From Clostridia bacterium (lineage in GTDB: Bacteria > Bacillota > TC1 > UBA5767): DNA of 64,000 nt. Below the pieces are notes generated by a model. The model made no database searches. It had not been told where the DNA came from and saw only the letters and a list, made by a program, of their open reading frames with translations. How positions within the stretch are numbered: position 1 is the stretch's first letter; each line of letters starts with the position of its first letter. The position numbers and the translations under genes were made by a program. Where the stretch lies: NCBI GenBank assembly GCA_016887505.1, contig CP069393.1, forward strand, positions 124,001 through 188,000, written 5' to 3'. Shown piece after piece: positions 351 to 30,503 of the stretch.

Positions 351-2303
351 ATGGAAAACATTAGATTGGCTACATTACAAGACCTTCCTGAACTCTTAAA
401 ACTGGAGAAGGATTCATTTACAAAAGACAAGGCTGCTGCTAGGCGTTCCTTGAGATTAAGCATTAGCAGCAGACATCAGGAAGTATATATCCTGGAGTCG
501 GATAGTATGATAGGGTCTATTGTTATACAGTTTTATAAATATACTGCTCGTCTTTACTCAATCGCTGTTGCCGACGAATATAGGGGCCAGGGCTATGGCA
601 AACGCTTGCTCAAATATTGTGAAAATGTTGCAAGAAGCCGGGGGATTTCCACCGTATCACTCGAAGTAGACGCAAACGATCTTTCCTTAACCGGATGGTA
701 TGAGAGACAAGGCTATACAGTTAGAAAGAAACTAGACGATTATTACGGTAAAAATAAACATGCTTTTCGTATGCTAAAAACCATTGATACCGTGAAAAAG
801 AAAAGTGGACGTCTTCAAAACATAATTGTTTCAGATGACCCGTCGATAGCAGTTTACGACAATGATTATGTGGAAATCATTTCCTCGGAAGAATATATAT
901 ACAACGTGCGGTTTCAGAAAACCTCTAACTTTCGAATATTCAACATGAGCGATAGTTACCGCTATCAATCCAAAGGATACTACGTTTCTTTGCTGGCGTC
1001 CGCTCGAGACCATCGGGTTATTCCGAGTGTTGCAACCATGCAAGATGTTACGAGTGTCCCACTCATGAATTGCTTTGCAGATGAATACAATACAATCCTA
1101 AATGATGAACTTCGGCAATTGGAAAAGGATACAGTGGAATATACGCTTGTGTTGGGGCATGAGCTAAATGGTCAATCTACCAAACTCAGCCGACACCTGT
1201 ATAAGTTATTTGAGGCTCCATTTGTGACCTTTCGATTCAGAAAAGGGGATAAATGGCTACTCGAGAAGGTAGAGTTACTTAGTATCAAGGATTTGCCGAT
1301 GATCCCGGAACAGACTGTCAGGAAAATTGCAAAGTCATTTTTTGCCCAGAAAAAATTTAACAGGTCAAAATTGAAAAATTATGAGTATGATTTGGCCATA
1401 CTTGTTAATCCGGATGAAGAAAATCCACCATCTAATAAGAAAGCCTTGGACCGATTTAAAAAAATGGGGGAAAAGAATGGATTTTTTGTAGAGTTTATTA
1501 CCAAGGATTCAATGAATCGAATCAATGAATTTGATGCACTTCTTATTAGGGAAACGACTGCCGTAAACGACCATACCTACCAAATATCCAGATTTGCCTA
1601 TGCGGAGGGCTTGGTTGTAGTGGATGACCCTTGGTCAATTCTTAAATGCTGTAATAAGTTTTACCTAATGGAAAGAATGATGCGTGCTAAAATTCTAATG
1701 CCCAAAAGTATGGTGATTGCACGTGGGGAAGAATCGACAAAAAAACTAACAAAGGTGATGGACTTTCCAATTGTTCTCAAACAACCAGACAGCGCTTTTT
1801 CGCTGGGGGTGCACAAGGTTAAAAACATGGAAGAGCTAGAGTTAAAATGCGCAGAACTTTTGAAAAGTTCAGAATTTGTAATTGCGCAAGAATATTTGCC
1901 GTCAGAGTATGATTGGCGAATTGGCGTTATGAATAATGAGGTTCTTTATGCTTGTCGCTATTATATGGCAACAGGTCACTGGCAGATCTATAATTGGTCT
2001 AAGGAATTAACGGAGAACAGTGAGTTCAGTGGCAACTCTGAAACACTAGACATTGGTGATGTACCGGCAATCGTAATAGAAACAGCCCTAAAGGCTGCTT
2101 CTTACATTGGCGATGGATTGTATGGGGTAGATCTAAAACTGATTGATGGAGTTTGCTATCTCATTGAAATTAATGATAATCCGAGTATAGATAGTGGCAT
2201 CGAGGATGCTGTTTTAGGAGATGTCTTGTATGACCGGATTATCCGAATTATGAAAGATAGGATTACTCAGGCTAGAAATATTAATAAGTATATTGAACTA
2301 TGA
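351..2303 (+). CDS. GNAT acetyltransferase / RLAN / RimK-like ATP-grasp amidoligase fusion
   Basis: This 650-residue, three-part protein is probably a peptide-bond or amide-forming ligase coupled to acyl transfer. Residues 1-140 are a GNAT domain with the acetyl-CoA loop RGQGYGKR near residue 80. The middle resembles the RLAN domain (RimK-like ATP-grasp N-terminal domain). Residues from about 350 on are ATP-grasp, ending in the metal-binding pattern GVDLKLIDG...LIEINDNPSID near 595-613. I start it at the ATG at 351, because GGAG sits 5 bases upstream; an in-frame ATG-like start at 321 lacks a ribosome binding site. RLAN/ATP-grasp proteins associated with GNAT domains were described in comparative-genomic work on amidoligases. 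The substrate is unknown. No peptidase or GCS2 partner gene is next to it; it stands alone between terminators. Confidence 0.85.
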   Translation: MENIRLATLQDLPELLKLEKDSFTKDKAAARRSLRLSISSRHQEVYILESDSMIGSIVIQFYKYTARLYSIAVADEYRGQGYGKRLLKYCENVARSRGISTVSLEVDANDLSLTGWYERQGYTVRKKLDDYYGKNKHAFRMLKTIDTVKKKSGRLQNIIVSDDPSIAVYDNDYVEIISSEEYIYNVRFQKTSNFRIFNMSDSYRYQSKGYYVSLLASARDHRVIPSVATMQDVTSVPLMNCFADEYNTILNDELRQLEKDTVEYTLVLGHELNGQSTKLSRHLYKLFEAPFVTFRFRKGDKWLLEKVELLSIKDLPMIPEQTVRKIAKSFFAQKKFNRSKLKNYEYDLAILVNPDEENPPSNKKALDRFKKMGEKNGFFVEFITKDSMNRINEFDALLIRETTAVNDHTYQISRFAYAEGLVVVDDPWSILKCCNKFYLMERMMRAKILMPKSMVIARGEESTKKLTKVMDFPIVLKQPDSAFSLGVHKVKNMEELELKCAELLKSSEFVIAQEYLPSEYDWRIGVMNNEVLYACRYYMATGHWQIYNWSKELTENSEFSGNSETLDIGDVPAIVIETALKAASYIGDGLYGVDLKLIDGVCYLIEINDNPSIDSGIEDAVLGDVLYDRIIRIMKDRITQARNINKYIEL

Positions 2304-2348
2304 TTGAATATGGACAGGAAAAGTAGTTAGATACATCTATACACATGC

Positions 2349-2396
2349 AAGATGGAAAGGTCGGCCCGTAAGGGCCGACCTTTCCATCTTGTTTAT
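2349..2396. terminator. Convergent terminator hairpin
   Basis: A perfect 19-bp stem (2349-2367 with 2372-2390) with a GTAA loop separates the ATP-grasp gene from the converging helicase gene. The plus-strand tail is GTTTATCTTTT; the minus-strand tail is T-poor, so it serves the plus gene best. Confidence 0.8.
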
Positions 2397-2399
2397 CTT

Positions 2400-3851
2400 T
2401 TATGAATTGTCGATAACCTTGCTTACTTTCCGCAACCTACCTTTGATTTTTTTTGTCTGCAATGTTTTATAGACTAGTTCACCTTTGTTATTCAATATTT
2501 CAACATAGGTAGATATATCCAAAATATTAATGATGCCAACATCTTTAGCAGACATTCCTTCAATATTACAGAGTGTTCCGACTACATCGACTGGTCTCAT
2601 CTTGGTTCTTTTACCCGCATTGATATGTAGCTTCATGATTTCTTTGCTGAATTGAGCCCCTTTTACCTGCTTTGCCTCAGGCTTAATCTGTGCCTTGGTT
2701 AAAAATTCCTGTTTAAACTCATCTACTGCTTCTTTGCTTGGCTTTTCACTTAGAATAATTTCCATACCCGTTCGCTTGGCAATGGCATCAAGAAATCGTC
2801 CTTCATAGGGCGCTATGAAAGTGATGGCCCTTCCTTTTCGATCGATCCGTCCGGTTCTTCCGATTCGATGTATGTATCGTTCGCTTTCTTGCGGAACATC
2901 CAGATTAATTACGAGTGAAACATTGTCTATGTCGATACCTCTTGCTGCTACATCTGTTGCGACTAGGTAGCGAAAGTAGCCTTTTTTAAAGCGGTTCATG
3001 ACCTTCAAGCGATCATCTTGCTCCATGGCACCGTGAATTTTATCACAGGTATATTGCGATTGTTTGAGCGTTCTATATACTTCTTCAACTTTCTTTTGTG
3101 TGTTACAGAATATGATTGCGCTATTGGGGTTCTCAATCGTCAACATATCTTTTAGAAGTTCAGTCTTATCGTTTGTTTCTACCCTATACCATGTTTGGCT
3201 AATCCGGTCTTCTACAGGACTACTTTCTTCAATCTCCACACGGATGGGATTTTGAATATGCTTTTTACATAAATTGTCAATATCGCTTGGCATTGTTGCA
3301 GATAGCAGGGTAGTTACCCGTTCCTTTGGTAAATTGGCAATGATTTGGTCAATCTGCTCAATAAATCCCATGCTAAGCATTTCATCTGCTTCATCGATAA
3401 TCAGGTACTTGATTTTTGAGGTATCCAAGGTCTTTTTCTCAAGATGGTCAATAATTCTCCCAGGAGTTCCTACGACCACATGTGTTTTCTGCTTGATTTC
3501 TTTTTCCTGAAGGTAGAATGGGGATTTCCCAAAAATGGCAGCTACCTTAATTCGTTTATAGCGCCCAAGATTGAAGATATCTTCCTTTACTTGTACTGCC
3601 AGCTCCCTAGTTGGGGTGAGTACAAGTGCTTGGGGTTTATTTTCATCCCAATCGATTAATTCGCAAATGGGAATGGCGAAAGCGGCAGTTTTACCACTAC
3701 CCGTTTGAGATTTCACGACGATATCTTTTTTTTGGAGTATGGCGGGAATAACTTGTTCTTGAACCTTGGTGGGCTTGTTGAATCCTAGGGTATGGATTGC
3801 TTTCAAAAGTTCATCACTCAAGGGGTAGTTCATAAAATCTGTATTAATCAT
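2400..3851 (-). CDS. dbpA: DEAD-box ATP-dependent RNA helicase, DbpA/YxiN type
   Basis: This 483-residue protein is close in length to B. subtilis YxiN. It shows the full motif set: Q-motif region GFNKPTKVQEQ (23-33), SQTGSGKT (48-55), PTREL, GTPGR, DEAD near 155, SAT, ATDVAARGID and HRIGRTGR. The last ~75 residues match the DbpA C-terminal RNA-binding domain, which in this family recognises a 23S rRNA hairpin, so a role in late 50S ribosome assembly is expected. The start is the ATG at 3851 with AAAGAG about 8 bases upstream. A monocistronic layout is likely, since the gene upstream on this strand (3975-4133) ends with its own terminator. Confidence 0.95.
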   Translation of the reverse strand: MINTDFMNYPLSDELLKAIHTLGFNKPTKVQEQVIPAILQKKDIVVKSQTGSGKTAAFAIPICELIDWDENKPQALVLTPTRELAVQVKEDIFNLGRYKRIKVAAIFGKSPFYLQEKEIKQKTHVVVGTPGRIIDHLEKKTLDTSKIKYLIIDEADEMLSMGFIEQIDQIIANLPKERVTTLLSATMPSDIDNLCKKHIQNPIRVEIEESSPVEDRISQTWYRVETNDKTELLKDMLTIENPNSAIIFCNTQKKVEEVYRTLKQSQYTCDKIHGAMEQDDRLKVMNRFKKGYFRYLVATDVAARGIDIDNVSLVINLDVPQESERYIHRIGRTGRIDRKGRAITFIAPYEGRFLDAIAKRTGMEIILSEKPSKEAVDEFKQEFLTKAQIKPEAKQVKGAQFSKEIMKLHINAGKRTKMRPVDVVGTLCNIEGMSAKDVGIINILDISTYVEILNNKGELVYKTLQTKKIKGRLRKVSKVIDNS

Positions 3852-3923
3852 TGTCCAACTCTTTCTTTAGGAACTTCATATCCTTCTTCTTGTAACGACT
3901 GCCTATGACCTGGAAAATCCAGT

Positions 3924-3952
3924 GAAAAAAAGGACGCATTGACTGCGTCCTT
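3924..3952 (-). terminator. Rho-independent terminator
   Basis: Read on the minus strand, a 9-bp stem (AAGGACGCA/TGCGTCCTT) is followed by seven T residues. It ends the small gene at 3975-4133. Confidence 0.85.
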
Positions 3953-3974
3953 GCGGTTTCAAATTATCAAATTA

Positions 3975-4133
3975 TTACTTGTCGAATAATCCGCCGCGCT
4001 TCATGCGCTTGATAATTTTAGGTTGTCCCACTTTGTTTTGTTCTAATTGTTTGCTATAACTAGAATTTTTTGCGCTTTGTTTTTTCTTTTCTTCAATTAT
4101 TTTTTTCATTCCTTCGATATTACTTTCAGACAT
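3975..4133 (-). CDS. Small basic protein of unknown function
   Basis: This 52-residue, lysine-rich protein is probably soluble: no membrane segment or signal peptide is visible. It ends in the distinctive tail RMKRGGLFDK. The start at ATG 4133 is fixed by a perfect AGGAGG six bases upstream; a longer frame from 4199 has no such support. It lies upstream of dbpA on the same strand but has its own terminator. A basic protein beside an RNA helicase may bind RNA, but that is inference only. Confidence 0.75.
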   Translation of the reverse strand: MSESNIEGMKKIIEEKKKQSAKNSSYSKQLEQNKVGQPKIIKRMKRGGLFDK

Positions 4134-4590
4134 CGTTGCCTCCTGTATATTTATTTGAATCAATAGGGTGAACCCCTTGTTCTTTTCAGCTAGTGACATA
4201 TTTCAGTTTTCTATCTAGAAATTCTCAACTAAGGAATCACCCAATAGAATGCATAATTTAGTGTATATCGCTATCTTTACTGAGTAAGTATACGTCGTCC
4301 GCAATAAATTAGCTAGCAAAAAGAGTAGAATATAAAAATCCTTGCTATTTTCTCTCCGATTGGTTACATTTGTCCTTACTCTTTTGCTCCTTAATTATTT
4401 TTGGAAATATGGTTTGGGCTTAGGAAATGAAAAAATTTCCAATAGGGCGATAGAATAGGTATGAAAAAGTACGCCCCTTGTCCGTACGCTTTCAACAAAG
4501 CCTAGAAAATGCTACTATGATATTAGTTGAAGAAAGGGTGTCTTGGAAATCGAGTAAATTCTATATAATCCCAAAAGGAGGATTCAATCT
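4134..4590. other. Intergenic stretch without a recognised gene
   Basis: This stretch lies between divergent genes and should hold both promoters. A TATAAT at 4564-4569 is too close to the AAGGAGG at 4575-4581 to be a convincing promoter for the nitroreductase gene. I see no RNA gene or repeat. Confidence 0.5.
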
Positions 4591-5259
4591 ATGAATAAGA
4601 AAGAACAATTGCTGGAAGCGTATGATTTTAGATTTGCCTGTAAAGAATTTGACCGGGAAAAGAAAATCTCCGAAGAAGATTTTGAGTTTATTTTGGAGAC
4701 TGCAAGACTATCTCCCAGTTCATTTGGATGGGAACCATGGAAATTTATCGTTGTTCAGAATATGGAATTGAGAGAGAAACTGAAAGAGTATTCATGGGGA
4801 GCCTTAAAACAGTTGCCTACTGCTAGTCATTTCGTACTTCTTTTGGCTAGAAAAGCGGTAGATACGAAGGCTGGATCGGATTATCTTACGCATATTGCAA
4901 ACGATGTACAACAATTGCCGCAAGAGGTCTCCGATATGAAAATGGAATTTTTTAAGAATTTTCAGCAAGGTGACTTTGACCTGACAGACGAACGTAAATT
5001 ATTTGATTGGGCTTCAAAGCAGGTATATATCGCTCTTGCGAATATGTTGACGGCAGCTGCCTATATGGGCATTGATTCTTGTCCAATTGAGGGATTTAAC
5101 AGGCAAAAAGTGGAAACACTCTTGCATGATGAAGGCATAGTTGATACAGAAGAGTTTGGTCTAGCTGTGATGGCTGCCTTTGGGTATAAATCGGAAGATG
5201 TTCATATGCATGGAAAAACTAGACAAGAATTAGATGATATTGTGGAGTGGATTCGTTAG
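4591..5259 (+). CDS. Nitroreductase family protein (NfsB-like)
   Basis: This 222-residue FMN-dependent NAD(P)H oxidoreductase of the nitroreductase fold matches the family's usual length. The N-terminal RFACKEFD resembles the R-x-x-R/K FMN-phosphate contact, followed by LSPSSFGWEPWKFIVV, the classic flavin-binding stretch near residue 40-55. The C-terminal helix region (NMLTAAAYMGIDSCPIEGF) fits the conserved G-x-x-S/C-x-P-I segment. Natural substrates may be quinones or other electrophiles; the sequence does not say which. AAGGAGG is 9 bases before the ATG. A terminator follows, so it is probably a single-gene unit. Confidence 0.9.
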   Translation: MNKKEQLLEAYDFRFACKEFDREKKISEEDFEFILETARLSPSSFGWEPWKFIVVQNMELREKLKEYSWGALKQLPTASHFVLLLARKAVDTKAGSDYLTHIANDVQQLPQEVSDMKMEFFKNFQQGDFDLTDERKLFDWASKQVYIALANMLTAAAYMGIDSCPIEGFNRQKVETLLHDEGIVDTEEFGLAVMAAFGYKSEDVHMHGKTRQELDDIVEWIR

Positions 5260-5327
5260 AAATGTGAAAACCTGATATATTCTAGTCAGATAGGATGGGA
5301 AAAAGTAGAATAGCGGGTAGATATTAG

Positions 5328-5370
5328 AAAACTCTTTTCATTCAGCTTTTGATGAAAAGAGTTTTTTCTT
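5328..5370 (+). terminator. Rho-independent terminator
   Basis: A 14-bp stem (AAAACTCTTTTCAT, 5328-5341, with its complement at 5352-5365) runs into a T-rich tail. Confidence 0.85.
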
Positions 5371-5501
5371 CCGATATAATAGAAATACCTAAGATATACT
5401 ACTATTCGAGGCAATCATTTGTCTTAATTTCTGCTATGCTGAAAACACTTGAGGAACGGTTGCAGAATCACCATTGAAATACGACAGGGGGAGAAAAACA
5501 G

Positions 5502-6416
5502 ATGACAATTAAGACGGTGTCTTTTGTGGGCATGGGTGCACTGGGAATCCTATTCGGAGGATATTTAACCAAAAAGCTTGGAAAAGAGAATGTTGGCTTT
5601 GTTGTCGATGAGAATCGGCGCCAAAAGTATGAAGAATGGGGGGTTAGTACCAATGGCGTTTTATGTGATTTCAAAATGGTGTCTGACCAAGACGCCGATG
5701 CGCCAGTGGATTTACTCATCTTTGCCGTCAAGGCGAATGCCCTAGAGAAGGCGATGGAGACAGAAAAGCACCAAGTTGGCCCACAGACGATAATCATCTC
5801 TTTGCTTAATGGGATCACGAGTGAGAAGATTATTGGTGAGCGTTTTGGCAAGGAAAAAATGCTGGTAACGGTCGCCCAGGGCATGGATGCTCTAAAGATT
5901 GGAAGAGAACTCACCTACTGCCATATGGGGCAACTATGTATTGGTAGCTTGGAAAAAGACACATCAAATTTAGAGGCAGTATGTCAGCTTTTCGATAAAA
6001 CCGAATTGCCCTATACCCGTGAAAACAATATCCTACAAAGACTGTGGAGTAAATTTATGCTGAATGTTGGTGTGAATCAGGTGGTCATGGTTTATGAAGG
6101 AACCTTTGGTACCATCCAAAAACCAGGTGAGGCACGGGACTTGATGATTGCTGCGATGCGAGAGGTCATGGACTTATCTGCTGCAGAAGGTGTCCCTATT
6201 TCTGAAAAAGAGCTTCATGCCTATGTCGATTTAGTCGACTCGCTTTCCCCACAAGGTATGCCATCCATGCGCCAGGATGGTTTGAAACATATTCCCTCGG
6301 AGGTGGAACTATTTTCTGGCACGGTGCTGGAATTGGCGAGAAAGCATAAGCTGGAGATGCCTGTGAATGAAGCCTTGTATACACAGATTAAGCGCATGGA
6401 AGAACAGTATTCGTAG
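5502..6416 (+). CDS. Ketopantoate reductase family protein (ApbA/PanE)
   Basis: This 304-residue NADPH-dependent 2-ketoacid reductase has the length typical of PanE. It opens with the Rossmann dinucleotide-binding motif VGMGALG (residues 9-15). The C-terminal domain carries LWSKFMLNVGVNQ, matching the conserved K-x(3)-N catalytic/substrate pattern. The family makes pantoate for coenzyme A, but many bacteria have several paralogues with unproven substrates, and no other pan gene is nearby, so I give no symbol. A GGGGGAG ribosome binding site precedes the ATG. The phosphoesterase gene starts 18 bases after its stop, suggesting one operon. Confidence 0.88.
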   Translation: MTIKTVSFVGMGALGILFGGYLTKKLGKENVGFVVDENRRQKYEEWGVSTNGVLCDFKMVSDQDADAPVDLLIFAVKANALEKAMETEKHQVGPQTIIISLLNGITSEKIIGERFGKEKMLVTVAQGMDALKIGRELTYCHMGQLCIGSLEKDTSNLEAVCQLFDKTELPYTRENNILQRLWSKFMLNVGVNQVVMVYEGTFGTIQKPGEARDLMIAAMREVMDLSAAEGVPISEKELHAYVDLVDSLSPQGMPSMRQDGLKHIPSEVELFSGTVLELARKHKLEMPVNEALYTQIKRMEEQYS

Positions 6417-24779: not shown

Positions 24780-25460
24780 CAGGATGAAGATTACGAAAAT
24801 TGCGTAAAGAAAGCCTCAATTGTACAGCAAACAGGATGGGGGAAAAGTGTTGTATAATTTATCGCGACCAAGGTTTTAAGAAGTTGGGGCGACGGTCCAA
24901 CTATTTTGCTAAGCCCGCTACTGGCTCTAATCAGGAATCAAATTGAAAACGCTGTGAATTTTTTCCTTGTAGCGGTAAGTATAAATAGTCAGGATACCAA
25001 TGAGTGGAATGATGTAAAAACTAAACTGAGACTCGACCAATGCGACGCCCTGCTAATATCATCGGAACAACTGGTAATAGGGAAAGATTCTCGGACCTGT
25101 TATCCTATATTAAGAAAGGGATAGGCATGTTGTAGTGGATGAAGCTCATTGTATTTCTGACTGGGGGCATTATTTTAGACCGAGCTATCGCAGAATTCCG
25201 AATATTATCAAGAGTCTTCCGCCTAATTCTCGCAACTTGGTGAAATGAGGTATTCAGAGGACCCTTGGTACGCGAACCTTTGAGAATTCAGGTAATAAAG
25301 CTGAAAAACCAGACAGATAGGTTTGCTTGGCTTGCAGAAAAAGGCATAGATGTCAGAGCTTATACTGGTCGGATGGTGGCAGGAGAGTCTAAGATTATTG
25401 AAGGAACGTCCATGCACAATCGATTGAAGGTTGTTGTTGCGATTTTCGTAGTCATATCAT
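24780..25460 (+). pseudogene. Remnant of a RecQ-family DNA helicase gene
   Basis: Helicase motifs survive in three plus frames. Frame one runs from 24780: IVQQTGWGKSVV (Walker A), an in-frame TAA at 24855, then FIATKVLR and LLSPLLALIRNQIENA, down to a stop at 25122. Frame two from 25132 has [22 protein letters not shown] (motif II and onward), stopping near 25246. Frame three from about 25265 has LKNQTDRFAWLAEKGIDVRAYTG, a piece of the second RecA domain. Tens of codons are missing between segments compared with intact RecQ proteins, including motif III and the catalytic C-terminal motifs. The gene is dead beyond doubt. Confidence 0.9.
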
Positions 25461-25646
25461 AGGAGGGTGTAACAGGTCTTTTAATTATGGAGATACACGA
25501 GATTTGTAGGACTAATTTTGATAAAGTGTTGCCCTTCAATAGATTGATGGTTCTAGATTAAGGAGGAATACGTAAGTATATTGTAGTGAATAATTTTGTC
25601 TAAACTCAAGATGCTCAATCTTAATGTTGAAAAGAAAAAAGATTTT

Positions 25647-26457: not shown

Positions 26458-27165
26458 ATGAATAAGCAACAATTAGCAACAAAAATATGGGAATCTGCAA
26501 ACAAAATGCGATCCAAAATTGAGGCCAATGAATATAAGGACTATATTTTAGGTTTCATTTTTTATAAATTTTTGTCAGATAAAGAAATTAGCTTCATGCA
26601 AAGCAAAGGCGCTACAGATGAAGATATTAAGCAATTAAGCGAAGAAGATACTGAAACAGTCAAATATATTCAAGGTAATATTGGATATTTTATTGCTTAT
26701 AAAGACTTATTTTCTACTTGGCTCTCACTGGGAAAAGATTTTGATGTTTCCAACGTACGTGATGCACTTTCTGCATTTAATCGCCTAATTGACAGTAATT
26801 ACAAAAAAGTCTTTGACGGTATTTTTGAGACTCTACAAACTGGCCTATCCAAGCTGGGTGAAAGCTCTGGTTCACAGACGAAAGCTATAAACGATTTGCT
26901 TCAGCTTATTAAAGATATCCCGATGGATGGCAAGCAGGACTATGATGTTTTAGGCTTCATCTATGAATATCTCATTTCTAATTTTGCAGCTAATGCAGGC
27001 AAGAAAGCGGGTGAGTTCTACACTCCACATGAAGTATCACTTTTAATGAGTGAAATTGTTGCTGATCACCTAAAAGACCGTAAAGAAATCCAGATCTACG
27101 AAATAATCATGCAGAGATTGATACAATTTAATGATTGCCGTAGGTCGTTACAACTTGCAGGGTAA
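26458..27165 (+). pseudogene. hsdM: Truncated type I restriction-modification methylase subunit
   Basis: The 235-residue frame starts at an ATG with GTGAGG in front and matches the N-terminal half of HsdM: KIWESANKMRSKIEANEYKDYILGFIFYKFLSDKE, then the conserved KKAGEFYTPHEVSLLMSEIV. Homology ends after KEIQIY. Intact proteins continue with DPTSGSGSLL (SAM-binding motif I), but here the frame reads EIIMQRLIQFND and stops. Motif I, the NPPF/Y catalytic motif and the C-terminus are all missing, as are hsdS and hsdR. The breakpoint near 27,100 is abrupt, as expected of an insertion rather than slow decay. Confidence 0.9.
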
Positions 27166-27192
27166 GTTGGATTTTGCGGGGTAAGTATTAGG

Positions 27193-27220
27193 AAGCCGAG
27201 ACTGCTCGGCAATTTTTATT
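27193..27220 (+). terminator. Small Rho-independent terminator
   Basis: A GCCGAG/CTCGGC stem with an ACTG loop is followed by AATTTTTATTT. It lies between the hsdM stump and the two-gene cassette. Confidence 0.75.
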
Positions 27221-27276
27221 TAAAGCAAGATTAGTACTGTTATCGGCTTAATCTTATTGAGCAAGGGGTGAAATAT

Positions 27277-27930
27277 TTGAATAACGAAAAATATAACGAA
27301 TCTTTATCTGAACGATTACACAAGATTAAAGAATTGCGAGAAGTAGCTAAAAGTGTTGCGAGTGGCATCATAGGGAATACACTATATAAAGAAGATTTAT
27401 TTTTCACATCTGCGCTGGATAGAAGTGTCGCTTTGTTGGATGGCGTCGTAAACATGCTACAAGAAAGAAATTTAGCTTGTGTAGGAATTTTAGTGCGATC
27501 TCAAATTGACAATTGTATGAGGATCTTTGCTGCATTTATTGCAGCAGATAAAACTGCGTTCATAGATGGCTTTCTTCAAGGGAAAAAGATTAGTGATTTC
27601 AAGGACGATCGCGGGAACAAAATGAAAGACGTCTTTCTAAGAGAAAGATTAGAGGAATACGATTCTCAGATCAGCGAAGTATATAGGAAATCATCAGGTT
27701 ACATACATTTTTCAGAGGTGGCTTTTTATTCAAGCGTTTGTGCAAAGGATAATTACCATATTGAATTTTCCATAGGACTTCCAATAAGAGAGGAAGCAAA
27801 TGAAATTCTATTGGAAGGAGCGGACGCTTTTATACATTACACATTGCTGGAATATAGGTTATTGCAGGCGGTAGTTGAATCAAAGGAACGTGTAGATAAA
27901 TTGGATTCCTACGGGGGTGAAGCGCAATGA
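27277..27930 (+). CDS. Helical protein, first gene of a two-gene cassette
   Basis: A 217-residue, mainly alpha-helical protein. The stretch LACVGILVRSQIDNCMRIFAAFIAA (near 70-95) and YRKSSGYIHFS (near 143-153) resemble patterns in DUF5677-like helical proteins. R-x(6)-H in the latter recalls the HEPN ribonuclease motif (R-x(4-6)-H), but I do not claim HEPN activity. I start at TTG 27277, 6 bases after AAGGGGTG; a GTG at 27268 overlaps that site. Its ATGA stop/start overlap with the next gene implies coupled translation. It lies between an hsdM stump and phage recombinases, a typical place for cargo genes. Confidence 0.7.
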   Translation: MNNEKYNESLSERLHKIKELREVAKSVASGIIGNTLYKEDLFFTSALDRSVALLDGVVNMLQERNLACVGILVRSQIDNCMRIFAAFIAADKTAFIDGFLQGKKISDFKDDRGNKMKDVFLRERLEEYDSQISEVYRKSSGYIHFSEVAFYSSVCAKDNYHIEFSIGLPIREEANEILLEGADAFIHYTLLEYRLLQAVVESKERVDKLDSYGGEAQ

Positions 27931-28877
27931 TTGAGGAAATTACCAAACGCTCTCTCGATGATGTCCGAGCGGCCTATAAGAAGTATTTAAATGAACAGGA
28001 TCTATCGAAGAACACCATAATGACATCTGCTACTGATGCTTTTTATATTTGGCGTAAGCTGGGCGCGGATTCATTCTGGGACATAGTCTTTTCTGACAGC
28101 TTTGAAACTCTCGCAAAAGAGACCCTTCTTGGCCTATTGCGTCAACAGTCAAGCGGAAATGCAGAGACAAATGTCAACGGCTATATGGCGCATTTGCGAA
28201 GATTCAGACGTTTCCTTCAGAGCGAGTCAGCTCTTGAGATACCTGAGACCATTTCTCTGGCTATAGCACCTACGGAAGGCACACTCGTAAAAATAGCACA
28301 AATACTACCTCCCCCATCAGTCGAGCAGGTTGAATATTATCTTGCACAGTGGGATGCACTTGAAGATTATCACCTTCAGGAGGATGCTCTTAACCGGCTG
28401 TTCTTCAACCTCTGCCCAGACAATAAAAACATATCCGACATATTGCTAAAGGTATCCGTGCTCAATGATTTTTATAGTACAAACATTTTTAAGGTTTTTC
28501 CTGTTGCAAAGCGCATTCTTTCATTAGGTATTGATGATCGTCTGCAGCAAGGAGATGGCACATTGGTTGACGATATAAAGGAAGTAGTAATAAGCGGGAA
28601 AACATTAAATTTCTACTCATTTGCCACGAAGTATTGTAGTCATCACAAGCCGCTGGATTATCCAATCTATGATAGTTATGTGGATGAAGTGCTGCGGTAT
28701 TATCGAAAAAAGGATGGGTTTGCTACATTCAGGAATGATGAACTGAAGAATTATACTCGTTTTAAATCTATTTTGGAGTCATTCCGAAAATTCTATCATC
28801 TAGATAGGTACAATCTCAAAGAGCTTGATAAGTACATCTGGCAGCTTGGCAAGGCGTACTTCAACAAATATGAATGA
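27927..28877 (+). CDS. Unassigned protein, second gene of a two-gene cassette
   Basis: A 316-residue protein. Residues 1-100 are helical and recall SAM-like core-binding folds of tyrosine integrases (LSKNTIMTSATDAFYIWRKL), but no recombinase catalytic residues follow. Residues about 170-316 carry LNDFYSTNI, GDGTLVDDIKEV, NFYSFATKYCSHHKPLDYPIYDSYV and WQLGKAYF, which look like a conserved domain known only as hypothetical. It starts four bases before the stop of the preceding gene (ATGA). A terminator follows at 28881. The pair converges on the phage recombinase genes. Function unknown; defence or toxin-antitoxin roles are possible but unproven. Confidence 0.7.
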   Translation: MIEEITKRSLDDVRAAYKKYLNEQDLSKNTIMTSATDAFYIWRKLGADSFWDIVFSDSFETLAKETLLGLLRQQSSGNAETNVNGYMAHLRRFRRFLQSESALEIPETISLAIAPTEGTLVKIAQILPPPSVEQVEYYLAQWDALEDYHLQEDALNRLFFNLCPDNKNISDILLKVSVLNDFYSTNIFKVFPVAKRILSLGIDDRLQQGDGTLVDDIKEVVISGKTLNFYSFATKYCSHHKPLDYPIYDSYVDEVLRYYRKKDGFATFRNDELKNYTRFKSILESFRKFYHLDRYNLKELDKYIWQLGKAYFNKYE

Positions 28878-28880
28878 CAA

Positions 28881-28922
28881 AAACTTCTCGCCACCCTAAT
28901 GATAGCGAGAAGTTTATCTTTT
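28881..28922 (+). terminator. Rho-independent terminator between convergent genes
   Basis: An 11-bp stem AAACTTCTCGC/GCGAGAAGTTT is followed by ATCTTTT on the plus strand. It closes the two-gene cassette; its right edge is close to the recombinase stop. Confidence 0.8.
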
Positions 28923-28928
28923 CTGGGC

Positions 28929-30503
28929 TTATGCTTTTATATCTGTCCCGTCCTTGAAGGTGACCCGGACATCGTCCTTGCTGTAGACCGTCATGAAATC
29001 CGCAAGGCTGTACCAGAGCGCGGGCTGAAACTCGGTCACACCTTCGAGTCGTTTGAGCTCGTCGAGGAAGGTTTTGATTGTCGCTTGCCGCGCCTGCTTG
29101 TCGTTTATCTCCCCATTGACCATTTCCAGTCCTGCTTTTGCCCTGTTGAAGCGATCGGTCAAACCATCGTAACGCTTCTGGTAGTCAGCTTGGTCGAGGG
29201 CTACGTGGGCGTTTTCATTGATGCACTGATGCGTGAGCTCGGAAACTACCAGGAGCTCGTTTTGTAGCTCATCACGCTCGGTGGTCAGCGCACTCAAGTC
29301 AAAAGCGGCGTCCTGGGCAAGCTCAAAGGCTGCGATGATTTCATCTTTGTCGGCAAGCAGCTTGTGTAGAGCCGAAAGGTAAAAGTTCTGTATTTCCTCA
29401 TCAGTCAGATGTGGCGTTGTGCAAATCTCGTCATTCTTGAATTTATGATTGCAGCGCCAGATGGTGCGGCGGTATTTGTCGGTGGAATGCCAGACCTTAG
29501 AGCCATACCAGTTCCCGCAGTGGCCACATTTTATTCTGCCAGAAAACAAATGAACACCGCTGTGTCGGCCACGGCTTTGATCACGCCGCGCCAGTTCACG
29601 CTGGACCATATCGAACACATCCGGGGTGATAATTGCCGGGTGGTTATTTTTCACATAGTATTGTGGGATTTCACCCTCGTTGACCTTTTTCTTCTTGGTG
29701 AGGAAATCAACCGTGTAGCTTTTCTGAAGGAGCGCATCACCACGGTACTTTTCATTTGTAAGAATGCTACGCACCGCTCCAGCGTTCCAGCGCGCTTTGC
29801 CTCCTGGTGAAAGCACACCATCATCGGTCATTGTGGAAGCGATACCGAAGGGTGTCATGCCCTGCAGAAATAAGCTGTAGATGCGTTTGATCGTAGAGGC
29901 TTGCTCTGGATTGATGATCAGATTTCCGTCCTCACCACGGTCATAGCCGAGAAATCTGTTGAATGGAACCGTGACCTTGCCGTCTGCGAAACGCTTTCTC
30001 TGGCCCCATGTGCAGTTCTCCGAAATCGAGCGGCTTTCCTCTTGCGCCAGTGAGGACATGATGGTAATCAGCAATTCACCCTTGGAGTCCAGGGTCCAGA
30101 TGTTTTCCTTTTCAAAGTAAATCTCCACACCTTTTTCCTTGAGCTGGCGCACAGTGGTCAGGCTGTCCACCGTATTTCTGGCAAAGCGGCTGACGGACTT
30201 GGTGACAATCAGGTCAATCTTTCCAGCAAGGGCATCGGCTATCATGCGCTTGAAACCCTCGCGGTGTTTGGTGTTGGTACCGGTGATGCCTTCATCGGTA
30301 TAAACCTCGACAAACTCCCAATCGTCACGACTCTTGATGTAGTTGGAATAATAATCGACCTGCGCTTCGTAGCTGGTAAACTGCTCTTCACTGTCTGTAG
30401 AGACGCGAGCATAACCAGCTGTGCGGCGCTTTTTGTTTTCGTTAATTGGCGAAGATGTGAACCGGCTGATTGTCGCCGGTATAGTTGTTACGGTTTTGGC
30501 CAT
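28929..30503 (-). CDS. Large serine recombinase 1 (524 residues)
   Basis: A site-specific DNA integrase/excisionase. The resolvase domain has YARVSTDSEEQ with catalytic Ser35 and SRFARNTVDSL. A Recombinase domain (PF07508-like; GMTPFGIASTM, RWNAGAVRSILTNEKY) follows. A zinc ribbon starts at CGHCGNWYG, with matching C/H residues in WRCNHKF and DEICTT. A predicted coiled coil (about 400-470) is the usual synapsis-control element of this family. It starts inside the end of recombinase 2 (16-base overlap), so the two are co-translated. It is the last phage gene on this side, beside the presumed attL. Confidence 0.94.
   Translation of the reverse strand: MAKTVTTIPATISRFTSSPINENKKRRTAGYARVSTDSEEQFTSYEAQVDYYSNYIKSRDDWEFVEVYTDEGITGTNTKHREGFKRMIADALAGKIDLIVTKSVSRFARNTVDSLTTVRQLKEKGVEIYFEKENIWTLDSKGELLITIMSSLAQEESRSISENCTWGQRKRFADGKVTVPFNRFLGYDRGEDGNLIINPEQASTIKRIYSLFLQGMTPFGIASTMTDDGVLSPGGKARWNAGAVRSILTNEKYRGDALLQKSYTVDFLTKKKKVNEGEIPQYYVKNNHPAIITPDVFDMVQRELARRDQSRGRHSGVHLFSGRIKCGHCGNWYGSKVWHSTDKYRRTIWRCNHKFKNDEICTTPHLTDEEIQNFYLSALHKLLADKDEIIAAFELAQDAAFDLSALTTERDELQNELLVVSELTHQCINENAHVALDQADYQKRYDGLTDRFNRAKAGLEMVNGEINDKQARQATIKTFLDELKRLEGVTEFQPALWYSLADFMTVYSKDDVRVTFKDGTDIKA

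Follow-up and report, generated by a model that had tools for sequence, protein, structure and literature searches.

A putative Ogg2-like protein encoded in a probable cargo slot beside attL of a serine-integrase prophage

Here, we identify two adjacent plus-strand genes, A and B, as occupants of what is very likely a cargo slot at the attL attachment site of a prophage that is inserted in the type I DNA methyltransferase gene hsdM of a Clostridia bacterium. The genes lie in a stretch of 64,000 nucleotides, hereafter the window (GCA_016887505.1, contig CP069393.1; G000:C1:124001-188000). At a probability of about 0.5, we favor a reading in which a serine-integrase prophage carries A and B as exchangeable cargo, B is a base-excising anti-phage enzyme and A is independent of it. 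The two genes would occupy an insulated slot with attL on one side and the recombinase genes of the prophage on the other; B would hold DNA via its N-terminal helical domain and excise certain bases with an Ogg2-like Lys/Asp site, leaving invading phage DNA abasic or nicked, and A would be linked to B solely through its position here.

The prophage and its attachment sites

The argument rests on the following features (window coordinates; aa, amino acids).

26458-27101, plus strand: 5' half of hsdM, host DNA (HsdM_N, PF12161, 3e-13, and the start of N6_Mtase, PF02384, 4e-13)
27100-27101: attL crossover core GA, the first two bases of the motif I Asp codon, from comparison of the left and right junctions
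27102-27126: attP arm AATAATCATGCAGAGATTGATACAA; partner arm at G000:C1:204750-204774, 18 of 25 positions complementary, reached by 0 of 20,000 shuffles
27155-27185: two direct 12-mers beside attL, TTGCAGGGTAAG and TTGCGGGGTAAG, starting at 27155 and 27174
27195-27210, plus strand: terminator-like hairpin GCCGAGACTGCTCGGC with T-run, 5' of gene A
27277-27930, plus strand: gene A, 217 aa, TTG start; helical DUF5677/HEPN-like protein
27927-28877, plus strand: gene B, 316 aa, ATG start; N-terminal helical SAM-like, putatively DNA-binding domain and C-terminal Ogg2-like domain
28881-28915: terminator, 15-bp stem with T-run, between gene B and the convergent recombinase gene
28929-30503, minus strand: large serine recombinase (LSR) 1, 524 aa (PF00239, PF07508, PF13408); 91-93% identity in L174 and L175
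30488-32260, minus strand: LSR 2, 590 aa (PF00239, PF07508, PF13408); 96-97% identity in L174 and L175

The second half of hsdM was located by a Pfam search of the same genome, at 204772. The prophage between the two halves measures 53,675 bp and interrupts hsdM in motif I (DPTSGSG), at the Asp codon. Its right end, attR, is at G000:C1 204775-204776, and attL and attR have only the dinucleotide GA in common. Joining the flanks restores a single open HsdM frame (...KEIQIY-DPTSGSG-SLLINIG...), followed on the 3' side by frames that are readable by eye as hsdS and hsdR. The final ~20 codons of the hsdM stump (EIIMQRLIQFNDCRRSLQLAG) are the attP arm read in frame; the host sequence stops at 27101. 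In the reconstructed attP, 25-bp arms surround GA as inverted repeats, which fits the expectation for a serine integrase. Altogether, the features of a serine-integrase element are all present, i.e., an LSR gene, a 2-bp core, inverted attP arms and a target that is intact after flank joining. A transfer RNA as attachment site is ruled out, there being none in the window.

The arrangement resembles that of Tn5397, in which the LSR TndX also uses a central GA dinucleotide and prefers a target inside a conserved protein motif, the coding sequence of the Fic domain (PMC4430133). Unlike Tn5397, which is a conjugative transposon, the element here is a prophage, its target is the DP codon of DNA methyltransferase motifs, and a cargo slot lies beside attL. 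A third 12-mer, TTGCAGGGTATG, lies near attR (G000:C1:204595; consensus of the three, TTGC[AG]GGGTA[AT]G), and related repeats (GGGGTGTGCA) come after the arm in other members of the element group; the 12-mers are possible accessory binding sites.

Because integration is at the motif I codon of hsdM, the host type I restriction system would be broken as well. To the right of the window, the prophage carries an N6-adenine methyltransferase gene of its own (G000:C1:191498-192469, within L026/L042; 728-aa frame, PF02384 E value 1.5e-96), which may therefore replace the methylation lost with hsdM.

Variable genes beside attL

Two observations support the idea that A and B are replaceable cargo. 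First, the prophage belongs to a group with a shared address. A 71-bp sequence 3' of the hsdM stump recurs, whole or as a core of ~30-40 bp, in 10 other genomes of 398 scanned, and the upstream gene, where readable, is usually a DNA methyltransferase gene broken at the same Asp codon. With the break marked by a slash, the protein reads TLH/D in G200, RLI/D in G023, VIYI/D in G346 (type III-like) and IY/D in G212 and G236; the viral contigs L174 and L175 also show the breakpoint. Some weaker arm matches, e.g., L039, are not located at a methyltransferase gene. We suggest that the prophages of this group integrate at the motif I Asp codon of DNA methyltransferase genes, a target based on the joined sites of the window genome (G000) and G023, the other sites being known from their first half only.

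Second, the relatives sharing the arm mostly carry serine recombinases, and the genes between the arm and the convergent relative of recombinase 1 vary:

L174 and L175: recombinase 1 relative of 91-93% identity; a 402-aa gene; 422-aa, 231-aa and 123-aa genes
L062: recombinase 1 relative of 71%; A homologue and a weak CAP12/Pycsar-TIR match, the contig starting inside A
G236/L047: recombinase 1 relative of 71%; SEC-C protein and PLD-like protein
L088: C-terminal piece of a recombinase 1 relative, 53%; GIY-YIG protein, 347-aa protein and B homologue
G200: 38-residue remnant of recombinase 1, 63%; A homologue and HExxH protein
G023 (L045:1371-4333): 2,962 bp between arms; 383-aa unknown gene and Mrr-type endonuclease (PF04471, 1e-35)

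Since differing genes occupy the same slot in relatives, A and B are best explained as replaceable cargo, which is what an earlier reading of the window from its sequence alone had suspected from their location at an att side. The G023 cassette has no recombinase, and joining its flanks restores a 532-aa methyltransferase frame; it may have arisen by deletion from a larger element or have been moved in trans as a cassette.

The G+C content of A (37%) and B (41%) is lower than that of the recombinase and phage genes (50%), and A and B are therefore probably of different origin from the phage body.

The gene layout given by the sequence-only reading stands throughout: A and B meet in an ATGA overlap, a hairpin lies on each side of the pair and both genes converge with the minus-strand recombinase genes, each of which encodes Resolvase, Recombinase and zinc ribbon domains. 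A Shine-Dalgarno (SD)-like sequence, AAGGGGTG, precedes the TTG of gene A, for which an alternative in-frame GTG exists at 27268, and the SD-like sequence of gene B, GGGGGTGAAG, lies inside gene A. Terminator-like hairpins are statistically weak as a class (3 observed versus 1.5 expected); the two that flank A and B lie exactly at the gene borders. The ratio of nonsynonymous to synonymous substitution rates (dN/dS) is 0.14 for A compared to its G200 homologue (82% identity) and 0.12 for B compared to its closest relative, L087 (78% identity), and we therefore regard both as genuine genes under purifying selection. Neither protein has a match in NCBIfam, PADLOC or GenBank phages, nor a significant one in Pfam or PHROGs, and Rfam gave no structured RNA between the genes at an E value of 1.

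Gene B and the Ogg2 glycosylases

B belongs to a family of hundreds of relatives that has no family name; 326 were confirmed in one scan of a genome collection, of which 80 were kept. Two domains can be told apart. The N-terminal third is helical and faintly matches the phage integrase SAM-like domain (PF13102, E value 0.026); a XerD-like match to this part in L013 (E value 9e-4) is a hint only. In L057 and L058 the N-terminal part is swapped for DUF7662 (a match just under the cut-off), and in some relatives the C-terminal domain stands by itself. The N-terminal domain is putatively DNA-binding.

The C-terminal domain is probably folded like the Ogg enzymes, with an active site formed by Lys and Asp. 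When its profile, built with distant relatives, was compared to the PDB (177,635 sequences, E value ≤10), it found Ogg2 of Methanocaldococcus jannaschii twice and nothing else (E values 0.37 and 0.75). Profile-profile alignment (hhalign) of the domain to the Ogg2 set gave a P value of 4e-4, compared to 0.18 and 0.08 for the controls endonuclease III and DUF5677. The AlphaFold2 model of B (pLDDT 84.7, pTM 0.60) matched weakly overall in Foldseek; the highest probability among the matches listed went to Ogg2 (3knt; 0.38, TM-scores 0.25/0.35), and MagIII and MUTYH were also among them. Two residues, predicted to be catalytic, align with the active site:

28629-28631, plus strand: codon of B Lys235, aligned with the Lys of Ogg2 GIGxK; present in 89/89 proteins
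28671-28673, plus strand: codon of B Asp249, aligned with the Asp of Ogg2 AIID; present in 89/89 proteins

Both residues are invariant in these 89 distinct proteins and in the set of distant relatives (A5), with the caveat for Lys235 that one of the two search patterns used for the 80 genome loci included the Lys. B resembles the Ogg2, or Ogg-HhH, 8-oxoguanine glycosylases (PF22175; M. jannaschii 3knt/3fhf) in having a helical domain with a conserved Lys and Asp in register, an Asp as N-cap residue of the following helix and, at the C-terminus, a Y-x(n)-LDxx(I/L)W helix.

Several observations weigh against this assignment. The similarity to Ogg2 is remote, and with database correction no individual match reaches significance. 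For the full-length profile of closer B relatives (A3), hhalign against Ogg2 gave a P value of only 0.02. Neither PF22175 nor the other HhH-GPD models in Pfam and NCBIfam match B. Moreover, B does not have the GxG hairpin, SFA[ST]K standing where Ogg2 has GIGxK; its model shows a beta-hairpin ahead of the helix. For want of the GxG hairpin and of any HhH-GPD profile match, we call B Ogg2-like rather than a proven member. B further differs from Ogg2 in its extra N-terminal domain, in scoring under the profile thresholds and in its mobile-element context.

A possible role in anti-phage defense

That B acts in anti-phage defense by base excision is a tentative proposal, to which we give slightly less than even odds. 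It is prompted by gene neighborhoods and by the glycosylase-like character of B. The DNA glycosylases Brig1-3 are anti-phage proteins of the uracil-DNA glycosylase (UDG) superfamily (PMC11078745, PMC13160076). B would resemble Brig1 and Brig3 in excising bases from incoming phage DNA, and it likewise occurs near defense genes (PMC11078745, PMC13160076); in contrast to this likeness, B showed no similarity to them in any search made, and there was no UDG fold among its sequence, profile or listed fold matches. Since Brig1-3 belong to the UDG superfamily, B would be a variant among anti-phage glycosylases.

The loci of B relatives support a defense role through the GmrSD (L058), PDDEXK_4/PDC-S26 (L052) and Sau3AI-like endonuclease genes beside single B homologues, the last together with a C5-methyltransferase gene (L157, by eye), and through the Mrr gene in the same slot of G023. 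REase_II matches also occur among the neighbors. A protein of ~340 aa with a PD...ExK-like signature (by eye; no Pfam match) is encoded 3' of B in 12 loci, of which ~10 are independent, and a small protein 5' of B in 11 loci, the L094 member of which matches DUF6508. Two points count against a defense role. The enrichment of defense genes is a modest contrast, with 131 PADLOC models (models, not genes) matched among immediate neighbors of B versus 61 at a distance of 6-7 genes, and the chromosomal surroundings of L087 are ordinary, with neither mobile nor defense genes.

The context of L087 fits the rival explanation in which B is an accessory DNA-repair glycosylase for damaged bases, with no specific anti-phage role, as does the fact that the nearest recognizable relatives of B are Ogg2 repair enzymes. 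We consider this explanation unlikely, however, because B is often on recombinase-bearing elements (LSR genes in 30 of 95 B loci), adjoins nuclease and restriction genes and is fused to different N-terminal domains such as DUF7662.

Beyond this prophage, a broader and doubtful proposal is that serine-integrase prophages and recombinase-less cassettes use the catalytic-motif codon of methyltransferase genes as attB, turn host restriction-modification off and install swappable defense cargo, with B founding an Ogg-like rather than UDG-like class of base-excising anti-phage proteins. If true, the interval from the conserved attP arm to the LSR gene would be a precise address for gathering defense cargo across Bacillota-type elements; the prophage would be a testable case in which an element that removes a host restriction system also brings genes of its own; and B would stand for a large family, as yet unnamed, of enzymes that putatively excise bases and are folded differently from the known Brig proteins.

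Three further observations concern B relatives and Ogg2. L104, L109, L110, L111 and L114 contain a highly similar element, found in several genera, in which nucleotidyltransferase and methyltransferase genes follow B; it is probably a mobile element that spread recently. In L019 (G100; 896-5776) and L127, a distant and a close B relative lie near macro-domain and ADP-ribosylglycohydrolase-like genes (by eye), which recall the ADP-ribosyl glycohydrolase neighbors reported for Brig1 and Brig3. Finally, a true Ogg2 relative (L071:1432-2130, minus strand; PF22175, 94.7 bits) adjoins QueC-like, TGT-like and TIR-like genes (by eye) and, judged by these neighbors, looks like a glycosylase in a cluster of the 7-deazaguanine-DNA type.

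Gene A and its relation to B

A is, with low confidence, probably an independent helical cargo protein with a nucleic-acid- or stress-related role. Its model is a helical bundle (pLDDT 82), and the residues conserved among its relatives are R74, Q76, D78, R82, G102, D118, Y136, S140, H144 and S146. DUF5677 (PF18928) is matched by two of six aligned A relatives (best E value 5e-4) and not by A of the window itself; A shares with DUF5677 the pattern of an R-x-x-E/D helix and an S-x-x-H motif, and the profile-profile comparison (hhalign P value 0.26) is not significant.

In favor of A as a HEPN ribonuclease toxin are the helical bundle and weak fold matches (E value about 1) that include AbiV (9bj6) and the HEPN domain of sacsin; a search of BFVD gave no useful match. 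The segment YRKSSGYIHF, in which the sequence-only reading had recognized an echo of the R-x(n)-H motif of such enzymes, is present, but only Tyr136, Ser140, His144 and Ser146 are conserved in it, and the Arg is replaced by K, E or D in relatives. With His144 invariant and the Arg variable, assignment of A to the HEPN ribonucleases by an R-x(4-6)-H motif is ruled out, and the toxin explanation as a whole is quite unlikely.

The ATGA overlap and the common insulation by terminators are what would be expected if A and B worked together as two coupled proteins, in an anti-phage or a toxin-antitoxin module, as the sequence-only reading had suggested. When the A and B profiles were run over all loci, A was beside B in one of the 95 B loci, the window itself, and no other A locus contained B. 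On this co-occurrence we reject a toxin-antitoxin or obligate pair, and a dedicated, conserved pair is not supported; a functional A-B pair is improbable. Elsewhere, A is accompanied by a TIR protein (L062) or a HExxH protein (G200), or stands without a partner, both in the phage contigs L063-L069 and in alphaproteobacterial, Vibrio and Bacteroides plasmids. Likewise improbable, B as an accessory factor of the serine recombinases (a directionality factor or att-binding protein) would suit its SAM-like N-terminal part and the serine recombinases found at most four genes away in 24/95 loci, but the closest recombinase relatives (L174 and L175, 91-97%) occur without B, and most B loci have no LSR in reach.

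Additional observations

In the related prophage of G236, a group II intron-type reverse transcriptase gene (L047:9423-11234, minus strand; by eye) interrupts the amidase region. In the window, short frames to the left of hsdM (24906-25462) resemble the remnants of a broken helicase gene (by eye).
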